64,000 bases of DNA. Source: Anaerolineaceae bacterium. Lineage in GTDB: Bacteria > Chloroflexota > Anaerolineae > Anaerolineales > Anaerolineaceae. The number at the start of each line of letters is the position of its first letter. Position 1 is the first letter of the stretch. Under the pieces are notes generated by a model. That model saw nothing but the letters and a program-made list of their open reading frames with translations. It did no database searches and was not told the origin of the DNA. This document shows, piece by piece, positions 16,730-25,290 of the stretch. The position numbers were made by a program, and so were the translations under genes. The stretch lies in the NCBI GenBank assembly GCA_029975475.1, contig JARKPB010000010.1:248001-312000 (forward strand), given 5' to 3'.

Positions 16730-17587
16730 TCAATCCTCCGCGTAACCGCAAAGCGCGATCGCGCGCGGACCGGTATGCACCCCCAGGACCGGGGAAACAA
16801 TGGTGATGAACATTTCAACGGGGTTGTGTTCCTGGCGCACGCGCTCGGCCAGGGCTCTGGCCTCTTCTTCAGCGTTGTTGTGCAGCACAGCCACATGCAG
16901 CGCTTTACCCGGGGGAATATGGCGAAAGAATTGTTTATACAGTCCGTCGATCGCTCCGCTTCGCGAGCGAGCCGGCAGGCTGGCGCCAACCGTGCCGGTG
17001 TCCGGCTTGACATAAATTAACGGTTTGATCTGGATGACCGAATCGAGAAACTTGATCGCCTCGCTGATGCGCCCGCCTTTGCTCAGATAGGTGATCGTAT
17101 CCAGGGAGATATAATAAACCATCCGATCGCGAACTTTTTCAGCCGCGGCCAGCATCTGGGCCATACCGCCGCCCGCCTCCCGCGCCCGCGCCGCGGCGAT
17201 CACCTGCCAGCCCAGGCCCATGGAATTGTTGCGGCCGTCCATCACGGTGACCGGAATGGGCGATTGTTCCGCCGCCTGACGCGCCGACTGGATGGTTCCG
17301 CTCATCGCGCTGCTGATGGTGATCGCCAGCACCTCGCTGGCACCCCGGTCGGCAGCCTTTTGATAGGCCGCCAGAAAGTCGCGCGGAGCCGGCTGAGAGG
17401 TGGTGGGGTGGCGGTTTTCTCGCGCCAGACGCTCATAAAATGCCAGCGCAGAAAGTTCAACCCCGTCTAAAAACTGCTCATCGCCAAAGATGATGGTTAG
17501 CGGGACAACCTCAATTTGATACTGCTCAACCCATTCGGCCGGAATATCGCAGGTGCTGTCAGTAACCAGAGCGATTCGATGACTCAT
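16730..17587 (-). CDS. degV: DegV family fatty-acid-binding protein
   Basis: A 285-residue DegV protein, which binds a fatty acid and, in Gram-positive bacteria, serves fatty acid kinase (FakB role). The family marks TDSTCDIP (residues 9-16), HPTTSQPAP (60-68) and the SSAMSGTIQSA loop are intact, as is TYLSKGGRIS. No FakA kinase gene is in the window. Upstream, a perfect AACCAA-TTA-TTGGTT palindrome at 17622-17636 could be an operator for this gene. Confidence 0.9.
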   Translation of the reverse strand: MSHRIALVTDSTCDIPAEWVEQYQIEVVPLTIIFGDEQFLDGVELSALAFYERLARENRHPTTSQPAPRDFLAAYQKAADRGASEVLAITISSAMSGTIQSARQAAEQSPIPVTVMDGRNNSMGLGWQVIAAARAREAGGGMAQMLAAAEKVRDRMVYYISLDTITYLSKGGRISEAIKFLDSVIQIKPLIYVKPDTGTVGASLPARSRSGAIDGLYKQFFRHIPPGKALHVAVLHNNAEEEARALAERVRQEHNPVEMFITIVSPVLGVHTGPRAIALCGYAED

Positions 17588-17749: not shown

Positions 17750-19450
17750 TCAGCGCAGGAAGAACAGCAAGGTCCGCAGATAAACCGCGGCAAACACCAG
17801 CGCAATCAAGCCTGAACGTATCAGCTCAACCGCCCGCCGCCTTTTTTGCAGGCGTGCGGACTCATCCAGCAATGCGATCAGGTCCGCCAGCTGCTCAATC
17901 AGCGTGCCGGCGGCGCGCCTGGCAAAGGGAGAACTGTATGTATTAAATGACACGCCCGCGTCCGCGACCTTGAGGGCGATACTGTCATTGGGCCCGTCCC
18001 CTACCATGGCGACTTTCAGGCCGCTGGATTGCAGCAGGCGAATGATCACCCCTTTTTGCGAAGGGGTCATCATCGAAAAGACAGAACAGGTGCGCGCCTG
18101 GCGGCGAACTTCGTCCAGAGGCATGCGGTTCATCATCCTGCCGGTCAAAGAGACAGAAGAGCCCGGCGAAATTCCGCATAGCTGCGCAACTTTTACCGCT
18201 GCCGCCGGCCGGTCGCCGGTGATTAAGATCGGGCGGATTCCGCGCTCAAGAACCTGCCTCACCGTCTCTTCCGCGCCAGATTGAAGGTTGTTTTCAAACT
18301 GAACAATGCCCAGGAAGGTATAGCCGCTGGCATCCGGCGCGGCGCTGCCTTCGGCAACCGCGATCGCGATAGGAATATGCCCGTCTTGATGGACAGCCCT
18401 GCCCAGATCCCGGATTTTCGAGATGAGCGGCAGATTCAGTCGGACCTTTTTTTTGGCGTCCACGTAAATTGCGGCGCACTTTTGGAGAACAACTTCCGGG
18501 TCACCTTTTAAGAAAAAACGCATCTGGCGGTCTTGAGTCTCGTAGCCGCAGGCCATATATCTTTTCTCAGGGTCAAAGGGGATATCGACAGCGCGGCGGT
18601 AACTTTTCGCCAGCGCGGTGTAATCCAGACCAATTTGCTTCGCGAAGGCGATCAACGCGCGGTCCACCGGATTGGCATGCTCAAGCGAATCGACATGCGT
18701 CAGGTCTGTGCATAAAGCGCAGGCGGTACCCGTCAGATCCCAGACATCCGGCTGGGGCGGGGAGGCTTCAGGAAACACCTGGCTGAGGTTCCGACCGAAA
18801 TAGATTTTTTCAACCGCTACCTCGCGGGTGGTTAACACACCGGTTTTGTCAAAACAGATCGCGTCCAGCCCATGGAAGGTTTCGAGCCCGCGGGGGTCGC
18901 GCAGCACAATGCGGCGTTTCAGAAGCGCGCTCCGGGCCGCGCCAACGAGCCATTGACGGAACAACGCCTTGTTTACCAGAAAAAAAAGGGCGGCACAGGC
19001 GGCCAGAAACCAGAATATTACCGGGATGACCGCCGGAGCGCGGCTCAACGAAAGCGCCAGGGCAGGAAGCAGCAGGTACAGGCAGGTCTGATGGCTTTTA
19101 TTCAACCACGCGGCGCGGTCGGGAGCAGCCAACGCGGCGGACTGCTGTTGAATACGGCCGTATTCCGTTTCTTCGCCAATGGCAACCACGCGCCCGTAGG
19201 CTGAACCGCGAATCACCCGCGTGCCAGCGAAGACAAACGAAGTTTCGCTGGCGGAGGACTTGATCACCGGCATGATTTCGCCAGTGATCTCAAATTCGTC
19301 CACCTCGAGCAGGTTGTTCCCGTCCAGCGCCAGGTCTGCCGGGACAATATCGCCGGTTTGAACCAGGACCAACTGACCTTTTTTCAGGTGGTGGGCAGGA
19401 ATGCGGGCATGCTGTCCGTCCTGCAAAATTGTAACCATGCTCTCAATCAT
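17750..19450 (-). CDS. Degenerate P-type ATPase (catalytic core, few transport helices)
   Basis: A 566-residue protein with the soluble parts of a P-type ATPase: actuator domain with TGE at 56-58, phosphorylation site FDKTGVLT with D201, nucleotide-binding KGD (315-317, canonically KGA), TGD (411-413) and hinge MVGDGPND (482-489). Membrane parts are strongly reduced: no M1-M2, one hairpin at about 123-160 without the usual PEGL-type ion-binding motif, and one helix at about 545-565. Normal members have 6-10 helices and 700-900 residues. It could still autophosphorylate but probably cannot transport ions in the usual way. The upstream bases carry no missing N-terminal part. It lies 67 bases after the MutS-like pair on the same strand. 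Confidence 0.85.
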   Translation of the reverse strand: MIESMVTILQDGQHARIPAHHLKKGQLVLVQTGDIVPADLALDGNNLLEVDEFEITGEIMPVIKSSASETSFVFAGTRVIRGSAYGRVVAIGEETEYGRIQQQSAALAAPDRAAWLNKSHQTCLYLLLPALALSLSRAPAVIPVIFWFLAACAALFFLVNKALFRQWLVGAARSALLKRRIVLRDPRGLETFHGLDAICFDKTGVLTTREVAVEKIYFGRNLSQVFPEASPPQPDVWDLTGTACALCTDLTHVDSLEHANPVDRALIAFAKQIGLDYTALAKSYRRAVDIPFDPEKRYMACGYETQDRQMRFFLKGDPEVVLQKCAAIYVDAKKKVRLNLPLISKIRDLGRAVHQDGHIPIAIAVAEGSAAPDASGYTFLGIVQFENNLQSGAEETVRQVLERGIRPILITGDRPAAAVKVAQLCGISPGSSVSLTGRMMNRMPLDEVRRQARTCSVFSMMTPSQKGVIIRLLQSSGLKVAMVGDGPNDSIALKVADAGVSFNTYSSPFARRAAGTLIEQLADLIALLDESARLQKRRRAVELIRSGLIALVFAAVYLRTLLFFLR

Positions 19451-19517
19451 TCCCGCGACCTGAGGGATAGCCCAGCAGCTTTATTTCCGTCATCCGGCAA
19501 ACAACAGCCGCCGCGAC

Positions 19518-21029
19518 TTAGGACTGAGCGGTTTTTTGGGAAAAAAACACACTTTGATACACATCCTGCCCAAAACCGGTCGGCAGAGGTTCCCCCACCG
19601 CCAGCTTGAACGTGCGTTTCCCGCCGCTGCCCCTCTCAGCCCGCAGGAAAACGGTATCCTGACGCCGTTTTTCATAGAAATAGCGGGCAAACTCATACAT
19701 ATGGGTTACAAAAAAGACTTTGATTCCCTGCTCGGTCAGAGCGCTGACAATCTGGCGGGCAATCTCCGAGCCTTCGCGTTCATTGGTGGCGGCGAAAGAT
19801 TCATTGAACAGAATCAGGGAATTTGGTCCGATTGAATCGGCGATCGCGCTCATCCGGCTTAATTCTTCGTCCAGTTTCCCGCTCTTCATGGTTGAATCTT
19901 CTTTCCGCCTGAAATGGGTGAACACCGCCGGACAGACGTTGGCGCTGAATGCCTCGGCCGGGACGAACATCCCAGCCTGCATCATCAATTGAGCCAGGCC
20001 AATACTTCTCAGGTAAGTGGATTTTCCGCCTTGATTGGCGCCGGTGATGATGAACAGGTTTTGCGAATCGCGGTCGAGATCATTGGCCACGATCCCGGAT
20101 TTCATCGCCAAAGCCAGACAGGCGTCATAGAGCGATTTATATTGATGAACCCGCTGGCTGGCATCAAAGGGGATTGGAAAGGCGATCGGGTTGCCCGATC
20201 GGGCCAGCTGATCCCGCAAATTGATGCAGCCGATGTAAAAAGCGAGCTCGGCGCGCAGAACGTTGAAGAAAGATTCGATATGCTCGCAGGCCTGTTCCAG
20301 CGCGACCGCGGCAGCGTAGACGCCTTCATCTTTTATATCGCCCAGCGCACGAGCGCCGGCTTCATCTCTGGGATGCAAGGAGAATGAATAGGATGGCGAT
20401 TTTCTTTGGAAGATCTCGGTTATGCGGCTGCCCCTGCGGGGATTGGGAAGACGCAGGGTGAAATTTGCGCCTTCATTTGCTCGCCCCAAATCGGCGCTGA
20501 TCAACGCGCCTTCGTCAAATTTAAGATGGCGTAAATGATGATTGACTTTCTCAAAATAGGCGTCGTCCAGCTCTTGCTTCAACATCGAAAAGAAGCGCAC
20601 AAAACCTTCCGATGTGAACCGGTCGGAATATTCAGCGGTGATGGACATCAGTTTTTTTAATTGATCCATCAGCATGAACATCATCTCAACCGCGCTTTCC
20701 AGCACCCGACCGGGGGAATGGACAAAAATTCCCAGCCAGCTGTGCTGTTTGCGCTCCAGCGCCTCAATCGGAATCTGGTATATCGCCCGAATGACCTCCG
20801 GGTTATTCAGGCAATCCTTCAACACGTCCTGGCGATAAACAATGGAATCCGGGTCGGCCAGTCCGTTGATCACCGCCTGCTTGACAATATTCAGGATATA
20901 TTTATCCCCCTGAGCCATGGCGTTAAATAAAAGGTCCAGATCCAGATCCTGCATCAGGTCAGCGGCTTGCACAGGGAATGGCTGCTGGGGGTCAAAATCA
21001 CGATTCCGGTTCATTAAATAGACTTTCAT
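19518..21029 (-). CDS. MutS-like ATPase B (domain V type)
   Basis: A 503-residue protein with a C-terminal MutS-family ATPase and an all-helical N-terminal lever/core part; the mismatch-recognition domain of MutS1 is absent. Walker A is TGANQGGKS (329-337), Walker B reads LILFNES (405-411) with N where MutS has D, and the family TxExG-like loop is FAATNEREGSE, followed by VTHMYE. The ATG overlaps the stop of the partner gene by 4 bases (ATGA), so the two are translated together and may form a heterodimer, as MutS ATPases work as composite dimers. Role unknown: not classical mismatch repair. Confidence 0.85.
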   Translation of the reverse strand: MKVYLMNRNRDFDPQQPFPVQAADLMQDLDLDLLFNAMAQGDKYILNIVKQAVINGLADPDSIVYRQDVLKDCLNNPEVIRAIYQIPIEALERKQHSWLGIFVHSPGRVLESAVEMMFMLMDQLKKLMSITAEYSDRFTSEGFVRFFSMLKQELDDAYFEKVNHHLRHLKFDEGALISADLGRANEGANFTLRLPNPRRGSRITEIFQRKSPSYSFSLHPRDEAGARALGDIKDEGVYAAAVALEQACEHIESFFNVLRAELAFYIGCINLRDQLARSGNPIAFPIPFDASQRVHQYKSLYDACLALAMKSGIVANDLDRDSQNLFIITGANQGGKSTYLRSIGLAQLMMQAGMFVPAEAFSANVCPAVFTHFRRKEDSTMKSGKLDEELSRMSAIADSIGPNSLILFNESFAATNEREGSEIARQIVSALTEQGIKVFFVTHMYEFARYFYEKRRQDTVFLRAERGSGGKRTFKLAVGEPLPTGFGQDVYQSVFFSQKTAQS

Positions 21030-22582
21030 TTCGCAAGCCGCTCCTTCAAGATCTCATAGGTCAGGCGGTGCTTTTCAGCAATACAAACCGCGTAAGCCAA
21101 TCCATCCGCCTGCTTGCGGATGATCTTAAACGTCCGGCGGGTGGGATCTTTGAGGTCAACGGTGCTGACCATGCTGACGGTCTGTTCGCCCATCCGGGAT
21201 AATTCATCAATAAACGACACGCAGACGCACAGCGCGTCCAGCTGGATGATCTGTTTCATGATTTCCTGGCTGAGAAAGATCGCATCACTCAGGGTGGTAG
21301 AGCTGAAAATCTCATTGAGAATGATGATGCTTCTTGGGGTAGCCTGTTTGAGGATCTCGTGAATTCGCACCAGGTCATCCTGCAGTTTTCCGCGCAGGTT
21401 GCGGATATCTTCCTGTTTCTCAAAATGCGTGAAAATCCGGTCGGAGAGGAACAGGCGGGCTTTTTTACCCGGCACCGGACAGCCGATGCTCGCCAGGTAG
21501 TGAAGCTGGCCAAACATCCGCGAAAAGGTTGTCTTGCCCCCCTGATTGGGACCGGACACGATGATGATGCGTTCTTTGCCCGAGAGATGAAAACTGTTGG
21601 TCACCACCGGGGTGGATTCAAACTGAACTTTATTCGCCAGGGCAATATCAAACGCGTCCTGAGCCTGAATATGTTTATCGGAAACCGCAAAATCAGGATA
21701 GCAAAACTTCAGCCCCTTAAATTTTATGTTTTCAATTAAAGCCAGGTAGGATAAGTAAAATTGAATTTCGCGGTAAAAATTGGCGATGCCCGGATCTTCA
21801 AAACCGGCGTAGGCCGTGTAAAATGCCTCTAACTGGCTGAAGACGTCAGGATAAAGCCTGGCAACGCAGTCCAAAACCAGCGCTTTCACGTGATTCATCC
21901 CGGCCGCGGTGATTTTATCAATCCGGTAAGGCTTGGCTTCAACCTGTTTGAATTTCTCAAAGGTTTCGACCACCTCTCTTGAAAAATCCGCTTCCTGGTT
22001 GTATTTCTGCACGCGAACGGTGATGCCCTTGATGATCATGCTGTACTGAACTGTGCTCAGGGCTTCTTTTACCTGGCGGGTGGTGGCTTGAAATTTGAGA
22101 AACGCGTCCTGAGCCACATAATCCTTCAGATAAGCCCAGATGCCAAGCAGGCCCTCCGAATGGACTTCAAGACCGTTCAGATCTTCAGCCAGCCCGTTGA
22201 CTGCCTGACAGTACAGGTCCGCTGCCTCCAGCACCCAGCCCGCCTGGTGGTACTTGTAGTAAAGCTTCTCAATCATTCCCAGATACCGGCGCACCAGCAT
22301 CATGCGTTCAGAAAAGGTATTAAAAACCGCCAGGACAGCCTGGTCTTCCAGATCGCGAAATATATCCTGCCGGTATTTCAAAACCCGAGTATCTTGCAGT
22401 GGCTGATAATAAATGGGTTCCAGATGGAAGGTCTGCTTTTGCGCCAGAATGGTATTGATCACCTGGTCTAAAAACAGATCGGCAAAGTGTTCCGGGGGGG
22501 AGGAACTCTCTTGTTCAGCTGCTCCGGTTTCAGGATCGGGAAAAAGAATACTGGGGGCGGCCGAGTGAATCAAATCGTTCAT
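21026..22582 (-). CDS. MutS-like ATPase A (domain V type)
   Basis: A 518-residue partner of the next gene. The N-terminal ~330 residues are helical (core/lever type), and the C-terminal ATPase has Walker A SGPNQGGKT (343-351) and Walker B IIILNEIFSS (419-428), again N in place of D. It shares only general layout with its partner, so this is not a recent duplication. The ATG at 22582 is preceded by CGGAGG at 11 bases; an in-frame extension to 22630 would enter the leader terminator region. The leader holds a strong intrinsic terminator 50 bases upstream. Confidence 0.85.
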   Translation of the reverse strand: MNDLIHSAAPSILFPDPETGAAEQESSSPPEHFADLFLDQVINTILAQKQTFHLEPIYYQPLQDTRVLKYRQDIFRDLEDQAVLAVFNTFSERMMLVRRYLGMIEKLYYKYHQAGWVLEAADLYCQAVNGLAEDLNGLEVHSEGLLGIWAYLKDYVAQDAFLKFQATTRQVKEALSTVQYSMIIKGITVRVQKYNQEADFSREVVETFEKFKQVEAKPYRIDKITAAGMNHVKALVLDCVARLYPDVFSQLEAFYTAYAGFEDPGIANFYREIQFYLSYLALIENIKFKGLKFCYPDFAVSDKHIQAQDAFDIALANKVQFESTPVVTNSFHLSGKERIIIVSGPNQGGKTTFSRMFGQLHYLASIGCPVPGKKARLFLSDRIFTHFEKQEDIRNLRGKLQDDLVRIHEILKQATPRSIIILNEIFSSTTLSDAIFLSQEIMKQIIQLDALCVCVSFIDELSRMGEQTVSMVSTVDLKDPTRRTFKIIRKQADGLAYAVCIAEKHRLTYEILKERLAK

Positions 22583-22632
22583 GGTAAATGTTACCTCCGC
22601 AACAGATAAACGCAACGGTAGGGCTACCAAAT

Positions 22633-22669: not shown

Positions 22670-22724
22670 ATCAGTCATGTGACATTTCAAGCGAGCCTCA
22701 TCGCTTCAATCTATCGCTGACTTG

Positions 22725-22754
22725 ATTATACTGGATTTTTATCCGGTCTGCCAG
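22725..22754 (-). promoter_or_regulatory. Probable promoter of the MutS-like operon
   Basis: On the minus strand a perfect -10 TATAAT (22725-22730) is preceded 18 bases earlier by CTGGCA (22749-22754, 4 of 6 matches to the -35). Transcription would start near 22718, giving a leader of about 135 bases that contains the intrinsic terminator. Confidence 0.5.
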
Positions 22755-25196: not shown

Positions 25197-25290
25197 CGGG
25201 AATGGATGGGAGTCGAACCCACCTCGGCCCGCAACGCGGCCCGTCACTGGTTTTGAAGACCAGGGAGCCCACCGGGACTCAACCACTCCC
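25197..25290 (-). tRNA. selC: tRNA-Sec (anticodon UCA)
   Basis: A 94-base gene with all marks of a selenocysteine tRNA. The acceptor stem has 8 bp (GGGAGTGG with CCATTCCC), the D stem is 6 bp with a 4-base loop (GAGTCC CGGT GGGCTC), the anticodon arm CTGGT CTTCAAA ACCAG gives UCA, the variable arm is long, and the T arm carries GGTTCGACTCCC. The discriminator is G and CCA is not encoded. A near-consensus promoter lies directly upstream. Its presence shows the organism decodes UGA as selenocysteine; SelA, SelB and SelD are not in the window. Confidence 0.96.

Follow-up and report, generated by a model that had tools for sequence, protein, structure and literature searches.

A MutS-like ATPase pair and a short P-type ATPase in a predicted fluoride-responsive operon of an Anaerolineaceae bacterium

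The window analysed here, a 64,000-nucleotide stretch of an Anaerolineaceae (Chloroflexota) genome (GCA_029975475.1, contig JARKPB010000010.1, positions 248,001 to 312,000), carries on its minus strand two adjoining genes for MutS-like ATPases, MutS-A and MutS-B, followed by a gene for a short P-type ATPase. Upstream of MutS-A lie a fluoride riboswitch and a terminator, features absent from an earlier account made from the letters of the DNA (the sequence-only reading). We interpret the locus as a fluoride-induced operon encoding a heterodimeric MutS-like ATPase with a probability of about 0.8, a figure that excludes the identity of the ATPase’s client.

Read along the minus strand, the leader consists of promoter-like hexamers, the fluoride aptamer, the terminator, a GGAGG and the MutS-A start codon, and lies compactly between MutS-A and a divergent neighbouring frame starting at 22722. 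The aptamer (22714-22655, minus strand; crcB motif, RF01734) scores 31.1 bits (E 3.8e-7 in 231 bases), and an intrinsic terminator of 12 pairs and a T run (22669-22638, minus strand; fold -34.9 kcal/mol, z -4.43) contains the 3' strand of the aptamer pseudoknot in its 5' arm, which gives the element the 5' untranslated position and the terminator-type expression platform of a fluoride riboswitch. Aptamer and overlapping terminator together are predicted to act as a transcriptional ON switch, and predicted terminators overlapping the crcB motif were described in 2010 (PMC2864571; this and the other papers cited here by PMC number were available in part). Further upstream, a sigma-70-like promoter (CTGGCA, 18 nt, TATAAT; 22725-22754, minus strand) agrees with 10 of 12 consensus positions, as a consensus match only, and the GGAGG at 22594-22598 (minus strand) is, as read in the sequence, a likely ribosome-binding site for MutS-A.

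We take the aptamer to be real because it is the best RF01734 site of the 3.1 Mb genome (E 1.3e-6) and the other sites precede fluoride genes, because pairing of its P1 stem and pseudoknot is conserved and the terminator uses the pseudoknot’s strand, and because relatives of the operon score above the Rfam cut-off. The next two sites in the genome score 31.0 and 27.1 bits, followed by a gap to E 0.04; one is separated from a downstream enolase gene by two small frames (as judged by eye), and the other immediately precedes CrcB and a DUF190-CBS protein. In an alignment of 15 sequences, the P1 stem and the long-range pseudoknot were paired in 135 of 135 cells, with both sides changed in 12 cells, a value as high as which occurred in 0 of 500 shuffles. 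Several relatives of the operon have riboswitches above the cut-off, reaching 47.9 bits (L042, class set).

Open reading frame analysis confirmed all three genes where the sequence-only reading had placed them, namely MutS-A at 22582-21026 (518 amino acids), MutS-B at 21029-19518 (503 amino acids) and the P-type ATPase at 19450-17750 (566 amino acids), all on the minus strand; the coordinates likewise bear out the ATGA overlap said to join the pair and the P-type start 67 nt past MutS-B. The description of both pair members as MutS domain V proteins without mismatch-recognition domains also held: MutS_V (71 bits in MutS-A, 80 bits in MutS-B) was the sole MutS domain found by Pfam, with none other at E <= 1, and Walker A (GPNQGGKT and GANQGGKS) and Walker B (LNE and FNE) read as had been noted. 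The claim of AT-rich codons applied to the pair, whose GC content at third codon positions (0.61 and 0.62) gives the two lowest values among the 38 window frames of at least 250 amino acids (mean 0.693, s.d. 0.037), and failed for the P-type gene (0.672).

The pair is close to inseparable in other genomes. In a scan of one genome per species, at least 576 of 593 pattern stretches encode a MutS-B relative at E <= 1e-3, a set that includes distant MutS kin; the relatives examined here are the best 80 loci among the matches listed, from 79 genomes and with 51-60% identity to MutS-B. MutS-A adjoins MutS-B in the order A-B in 78 of these 80 loci, the two exceptions being loci in which MutS-B begins at a contig end, and the 4-nt overlap is retained in 69 of 77 loci. 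Record titles span about a dozen phyla and include Chloroflexota, Bacillota, Desulfobacterales and kin, Spirochaetota, Nitrospirae, Thermotogae, Acetothermia, Caldatribacterium, Poribacteria, Verrucomicrobiota, Bacteroidetes, Proteobacteria, Actinomycetota and one archaeal bin (Methanocella); most are metagenome bins, and single placements may be wrong. Variable presence, a possibility raised by the sequence-only reading, was indeed found: MutS-B occurs in 3 of 17 listed genomes of the window’s family and in 20 of 151 of its order, and thus comes and goes within the family. One locus (L110:6490-12538) has two tandem MutS-A/MutS-B copies followed by CrcB and DUF190-CBS genes, and another (L046:8899-9579, genome G040) has a riboswitch directly before what appears to be the C-terminal part of MutS-B only, without MutS-A.

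Riboswitches accompany the pair in most of these loci. A local model (R1) found one upstream on the same strand within 6 kb in 54 of 72 testable loci and within 600 nt in 42 of 72, where testable means that MutS-A is present with at least 150 nt of 5' flank (8 of 80 loci were excluded, 2 without MutS-A and 6 with MutS-A at a contig edge). Of the 15 sequences used to train R1, 13 came from pair loci (10 immediately upstream of MutS-A, 1 before the MutS-B fragment of G040 and 2 elsewhere in L041), and three of its training sites recur among the 80 loci (L065, L103 and L108), making 3 of the 54 matches positive by construction. Whole-genome Rfam matches were assigned to loci by coordinate alone, with contig numbers unchecked, and were hence counted separately; including them, the figures become 58 of 72 within 6 kb and 45 of 72 within 600 nt. 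Whole-genome Rfam searches matched a riboswitch in 38 of 40 pair genomes at E <= 0.05 and in 36 of 39 at E <= 0.001; among named control genomes the figure was 4 of 14. From the window’s class, 199 genomes were drawn evenly, and 20 of them matched MutS-B at E <= 1e-30, two of which (G064 and G088) are distant paralogs (34-37% identity) and two others fragmentary; under the stricter filters used for many genomes, 14 of the 18 class genomes with the pair had a riboswitch compared with 31 of the 181 others (P = 2e-7, one-sided Fisher). A control set of 34 loci of KamC, MutS1, MutS2 and two paralogs sharing the Asn-Glu (NE) Walker B yielded one riboswitch match (E 0.54).

Both halves of the pair are predicted to adopt a MutS fold of levers, clamp and ATPase without the N-terminal mismatch domains (single-chain models, mean pLDDT 81 for MutS-A and 82 for MutS-B). 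The best match of either model was 8rz9 (Z 29.1 over 401 residues at 4.4 Å for MutS-A; Z 31.4 over 379 residues at 3.9 Å for MutS-B), and the rows listed contained solely MutS relatives (MutS, MutS-beta and MutS2). Alignments to E. coli MutS often start near residue 260 for MutS-B rows, and at 154 or near 260 for MutS-A rows. Walker B reads NE in 33 of 33 aligned MutS-A and 35 of 35 MutS-B sequences, where MutS has Asp-Glu (DE); one fold match, 3k0s, is by its title an E. coli MutS structure with the same Asp to Asn change, and no paper on MutS D693N was found in the literature searched. The residue aligned to the MutS His past the next strand is His in 35 of 35 MutS-B sequences and Phe in 33 of 33 MutS-A sequences, and the loop before Walker B reads G-K-L/F in MutS-B (G and K in 35 of 35) and G-K-L in MutS-A (G in 32 of 33). 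The active sites of the two halves therefore show a constant difference, and because the conserved His of one half is Phe in the other, the two proteins likely form an asymmetric heterodimer.

The heterodimer idea, already part of the sequence-only reading, gains support from phylogeny. In a tree of the ATPase domain, MutS-A (25 rows, 100/100) and MutS-B (25 rows, 100/99) each form one group, so that two separate clades are encoded side by side, and both together with the two NE paralogs split from KamC, MutS2 and MutS1 at 100/100, a split for which the program warns of long branches. Five rows without a Walker A pattern were dropped from this tree, the MutS-A of L066 entered as a 258-amino-acid piece, and row L182, labelled MutS1 by length, falls in MutS2. 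The two NE paralogs represent a second NE family of MutS-like proteins in two other class genomes (L047:8787-10742 and L048:1-1060), and we rejected the NE Walker B as a fluoride adaptation because these paralogs have it with no riboswitch nearby. Over the 300 residues that precede Walker A, net charge averages -5.6 in MutS-A and +1.1 in MutS-B, figures that do not discriminate for or against a clamp on DNA; the isoelectric point was dropped as an uninformative sign of DNA binding.

The pair groups with none of the MutS subfamilies compared, a result against which the sequence-only reading had asked its proposal to be judged. The lever, clamp and ATPase fold predicted here and the expected heterodimer are shared with MutS1, MutS-alpha and MutS-beta, but the pair lacks domains I and II in the usual MutS numbering (Pfam), has NE rather than DE, and has Phe for His in MutS-A; MutS1 membership was rejected, with NCBIfam scores of 79.8 and 70.7 bits for MutS-A and 76.8 and 69.8 bits for MutS-B against cut-offs of 480 and 641.7 bits. 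MutS2 has a similar core architecture without mismatch domains, but forms its own clade and has a DE Walker B in 10 of 10 sequences read, and KOW and SMR C-terminal parts are MutS2 features that have no Pfam match (E <= 1) in the pair; at 55.7 (MutS-A) and 78.3 (MutS-B) bits against an NCBIfam cut-off of 400, MutS2 membership was likewise rejected. KamC is a MutS-like ATPase of about 500 amino acids that NCBI names lysine 5,6-aminomutase reactivase and is thus, by name, a precedent for enzyme remodelling, although no paper on KamC was found in the literature searched. It too differs from the pair, in having its own clade, DE in 14 of 14 sequences and no riboswitch near 15 loci, and the pair’s scores for NF052383 (46 bits for MutS-A, 73.7 for MutS-B; cut-off 300) exclude membership.

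The third gene encodes a protein with the Pfam domains E1-E2_ATPase, Hydrolase and Cation_ATPase, in which the catalytic core motifs are intact and M1-M2 and most C-terminal helices are missing. Its phosphorylation and dephosphorylation motifs are those of a P-type ATPase (TIGR01494, 160.9 bits against a cut-off of 62.3), but the set of transport helices (M1-M6 or more) is not: hydrophobic stretches occur only at residues 124-164 and 540-566. None of six aligned members of the short form has the P-E-G-L motif in M4. In all six (36-40% identity to the window’s protein), TGE, DKTGV, KGDP, TGD and, within the hinge motif, GDG and ND are kept without change, the aligned region begins at the A domain, and it ends with one hydrophobic region. 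Pumps of the Ca/Mg kind have similar A, P and N domain motifs (the best solved match is Listeria lmo0841, E 7e-44), but the window’s protein starts at the A domain, with two hydrophobic helices before the P domain and one after. These features support the transport deficiency that had been suggested, and the short P-type ATPase looks catalytic rather than a pump.

It is a real but optional member of the operon, and the view of the three genes as one fixed unit had to be abandoned: the short P-type gene occurs in only 4 of the 80 pair loci and is usually absent beside the pair in relatives. We found it in eight genomes (the window’s, G149, G060, G225, G265, G200, G654 and one record reached twice, L049/L166), three among the 199 class genomes and three among 400 phylum genomes, with the window’s own genome counted in both; five further class matches are frames of about 900 amino acids with 31-32% identity. 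All eight genomes have the pair or riboswitch-driven genes beside the P-type gene, and seven have a riboswitch in the stretch, the other being G149, whose contig begins inside MutS-A. In three of the eight (the window, L049 and L142) the gene and the pair share a strand and are no more than 80 nt apart; elsewhere a riboswitch directly precedes it (L165), it follows a riboswitch, enolase and a phosphoglycerate mutase-like gene (L050), or it precedes a riboswitch and enolase (L140). It was not found on plasmids in a search at E 1e-40. Longer P-type ATPases (769 and 865 amino acids) also occur, close to the pair in L190 and to MutS-B in L192, and cation handling may therefore be a wider theme.

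Under the fluoride reading, rising fluoride would act on the nascent leader RNA, which would bind it as a Mg-fluoride complex and keep its pseudoknot, thereby blocking the overlapping terminator and allowing transcription of MutS-A, MutS-B and the P-type gene. MutS-A and MutS-B, with their predicted lever-clamp-ATPase shape, would form a ring-like asymmetric heterodimer, and we infer that this may use ATP to remodel a client, possibly an inhibited enzyme complex, that fluoride has trapped together with Mg2+ and phosphate, by closing on it and then reopening it. In a few Chloroflexota, the short P-type ATPase would join the pair as an optional helper, regulator or phosphatase attached to the membrane. 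Three points lead us to favour remodelling over mismatch repair: the annotated neighbourhood is metabolic, not genetic; fluoride poisons enzymes via active-site metal complexes (PMC11139923); and NCBI names KamC, a MutS-like ATPase of the same size, an enzyme reactivase. Mg-fluoride is the riboswitch ligand, and enolase and pyrophosphatase are fluoride-inhibited (PMC11139923). Within the fluoride reading, remodelling of fluoride-trapped complexes is nevertheless a tentative proposal. Slightly more tentative is the suggestion that the pair represents a new functional class of the MutS fold, a near-obligate clamp built as an asymmetric heterodimer, in which Asn takes the place of the Walker B Asp in both halves and one half has lost the His, directed not at mismatches but at the ATP-driven release of enzymes or complexes trapped by Mg-fluoride-phosphate, and assisted in some lineages by a non-transporting, membrane-attached P-type phosphorylation switch.

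Several observations weigh against this interpretation. The window’s aptamer is not a formal match, as its score falls under the RF01734 gathering score of 34; a window scan at the gathering threshold missed it, and it was found only by the E-value setting. No riboswitch lies within 6 kb upstream in 14 of the 72 testable loci (R1 and mapped Rfam matches combined), and 5 of the 79 genomes had no Rfam match (2 of 40 at E 0.05, 3 of 39 at E 0.001), two of which have an R1 match before the pair (L096 and L102). Under the stricter filters, 4 of the 18 class genomes with the pair had no riboswitch match, although in G147, one of these four, a 24.5-bit match precedes MutS-A. Counts from the 80 loci, the best among the matches listed, may not extend to distant relatives. 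The two NE paralogs have no riboswitch in the surrounding 17.3 and 9.3 kb, although G088 has one elsewhere. Lastly, no client is indicated, since enolase, CrcB, Major Facilitator Superfamily (MFS) and DUF190-CBS genes occur near the pair but none always does, and no result separates protein, DNA or ribosome as the target of the clamp.

One alternative is a clamp on DNA: fluoride would inhibit Mg-dependent polymerases and nucleases, and the heterodimer would protect or mark stalled forks or ends without recognizing mismatches. The predicted fold is that of MutS and MutS-beta, and the 2010 paper, in the text available, read the mutS link as DNA repair and proposed a DNA-damaging stress (PMC2864571); however, Pfam finds no mismatch domains, no DNA repair family appears among the neighbour families annotated (selected clusters only), and MutS-A and MutS-B fall in a clade separate from MutS1 and MutS2, so we regard this alternative as rather doubtful. 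The same separation from the MutS2 clade argues against MutS2-like splitting or rescue of ribosomes stalled by translation GTPases that fluoride and metal have trapped. Although the MutS-B model matches MutS2 on collided disomes (7qv3, Z 28.0, 356 residues, r.m.s.d. 4.4), the KOW and SMR parts are absent, the genome has a separate 809-amino-acid MutS-like gene within the MutS2 clade, and no translation gene is among the annotated neighbours; action on the ribosome is thus quite improbable.

Chance placement of an unrelated or decaying ion pump behind the pair would fit the rarity of the short P-type gene in the class and phylum, its codon use unlike that of the pair, and the one copy that is split between two frames (L049). 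We consider this unlikely, because fluoride gene neighbourhoods surround the gene in all eight genomes, the invariance of its catalytic motifs at such low identity points to selection, and three of the eight copies lie close to the pair on its strand. The roles that the sequence-only reading had proposed (DNA stress, recombination control, defence or membrane signalling) yield to fluoride stress, with DNA work inside a fluoride response remaining among the possibilities. A defence, recombination-control or membrane-signalling system would, if mobile, show the patchy spread seen in the order and the presence of MutS-B relatives on 48 plasmid records, but the riboswitch and neighbours are those of fluoride resistance and fluoride islands are themselves mobile (PMC5533749, PMC5971314), which makes such a system very improbable.

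The system is not undescribed, as had been supposed: the riboswitch class was tied to mutS genes in 2010 (PMC2864571), and a 2020 review repeats the crcB-motif link as DNA repair proteins (PMC7266159). Those fluoride riboswitch regulons share with the window the aptamer core, the overlapping terminator, the place 5' of a mutS-like gene, and common neighbours such as CrcB, enolase, antiporters and a pyrophosphatase-domain protein, but the 2010 paper, as far as available, names just ‘mutS’ and ‘DNA repair’ (PMC2864571). New here is that the mutS-like gene belongs to a near-inseparable asymmetric pair outside MutS1 and MutS2, which a transport-deficient P-type ATPase joins in few genomes. In literature covered in part, we found no paper describing the pair, its asymmetry or such a P-type partner, and a partial full-text search found none joining ‘fluoride riboswitch’ with MutS or mismatch repair; the literature searched also held no assay of the pair’s function. 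In the Enterobacter cloacae FRM fluoride operon, the riboswitch drives ppaC, uspA, eno, gpmA and crcB, and a short orf5249 of just 261 bp is annotated as a divalent cation transporting ATPase; unlike in the window, no MutS gene is among the genes listed in the available text (PMC5533749). Another paper, also available in part, has a CrcB operon plus unrelated metal pumps (PMC9484302).

The distribution of the pair bears on how fluoride resistance is understood. Accounts of resistance usually combine export with extra copies of the enzymes that fluoride inhibits, and a MutS-like pair under a fluoride switch that is widespread across about a dozen phyla, an archaeal bin and plasmids implies a further activity. 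Calling the pair ‘DNA repair’ may be misleading, much as it was misleading to label the fluoride exporter EriC a chloride transporter (PMC7266159). The pair is small, has no predicted membrane helices and could be tested in vitro. If the reading of the short P-type ATPase is true, its intact catalytic cycle, in the absence of an ion path, would show the two halves of such an enzyme uncoupled in nature.

Neighbouring genes in the fetched stretches of the 80 loci included enolase (27 loci), DUF190-CBS (20), CrcB (17), an MFS family (16), a dynamin-like GTPase (15), a phosphoglycerate mutase-like protein, a Na+/H+ antiporter and a HEAT-repeat protein (10 each), UspA (7) and a longer P-type ATPase (3), and 43 of 80 loci have at least one of CrcB, enolase and Na+/H+ antiporter nearby. 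Antisense frames are among the neighbour clusters, and annotation covered selected clusters; the references for UspA, phosphoglycerate mutase and MoxR were named from sequence reading, not Pfam. Several of these families are usual members of fluoride regulons (PMC11139923, PMC5533749). A single preferred client gene beside the pair was rejected, as no neighbour was constant. The dynamin-like GTPase recurs in fluoride neighbourhoods (for example L039:13190-14926 and L141:8586-10388). To our knowledge, this GTPase has no known role in such neighbourhoods. A small protein of about 150 amino acids with no Pfam match at E 0.01 also recurs (L041:15630-16091, plus strand; L052 from 1304, minus; L067 from 6554, minus; L167 after 4836, plus), lying between riboswitch and enolase in L052 and L067, and a similar frame is found there, by eye, in the window’s genome. 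A protein of about 480 amino acids beside the pair (L110:4560-5987 and L141:13452-14930) has an inorganic pyrophosphatase domain in the L141 copy (35 bits) and no Pfam match at E 0.001 in the L110 copy. MoxR-type ATPase (by eye) and DUF58 genes lie near or behind fluoride riboswitches in L140:9049-11243 and L041:2226-4481.

Of the 48 plasmid records with MutS-B relatives, 21 are typed conjugative. On plasmids of Klebsiella and Rhodococcus, MutS-B shares a 4-nt overlap with a gene annotated as MutS, and on a Rubrobacter plasmid two hypothetical genes precede MutS-B; each of the three plasmid stretches read has a riboswitch (42 to 57 bits) together with antiporter, UspA, enolase or CrcB genes. 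The Klebsiella plasmid L190, typed mobilizable, has riboswitch, antiporter, UspA and pair near IS26.

Downstream of the operon in the window, a DegV-family gene (16730-17587, minus strand) follows the P-type gene on the same strand after 162 nt, and a consensus scan found no minus-strand terminator between the two; a shared transcript may be possible. On the other side, about 2.5 kb from the operon, a selenocysteine tRNA (25198-25290, minus strand; 69.5 bits) overlaps the start region of a predicted M50 peptidase frame.

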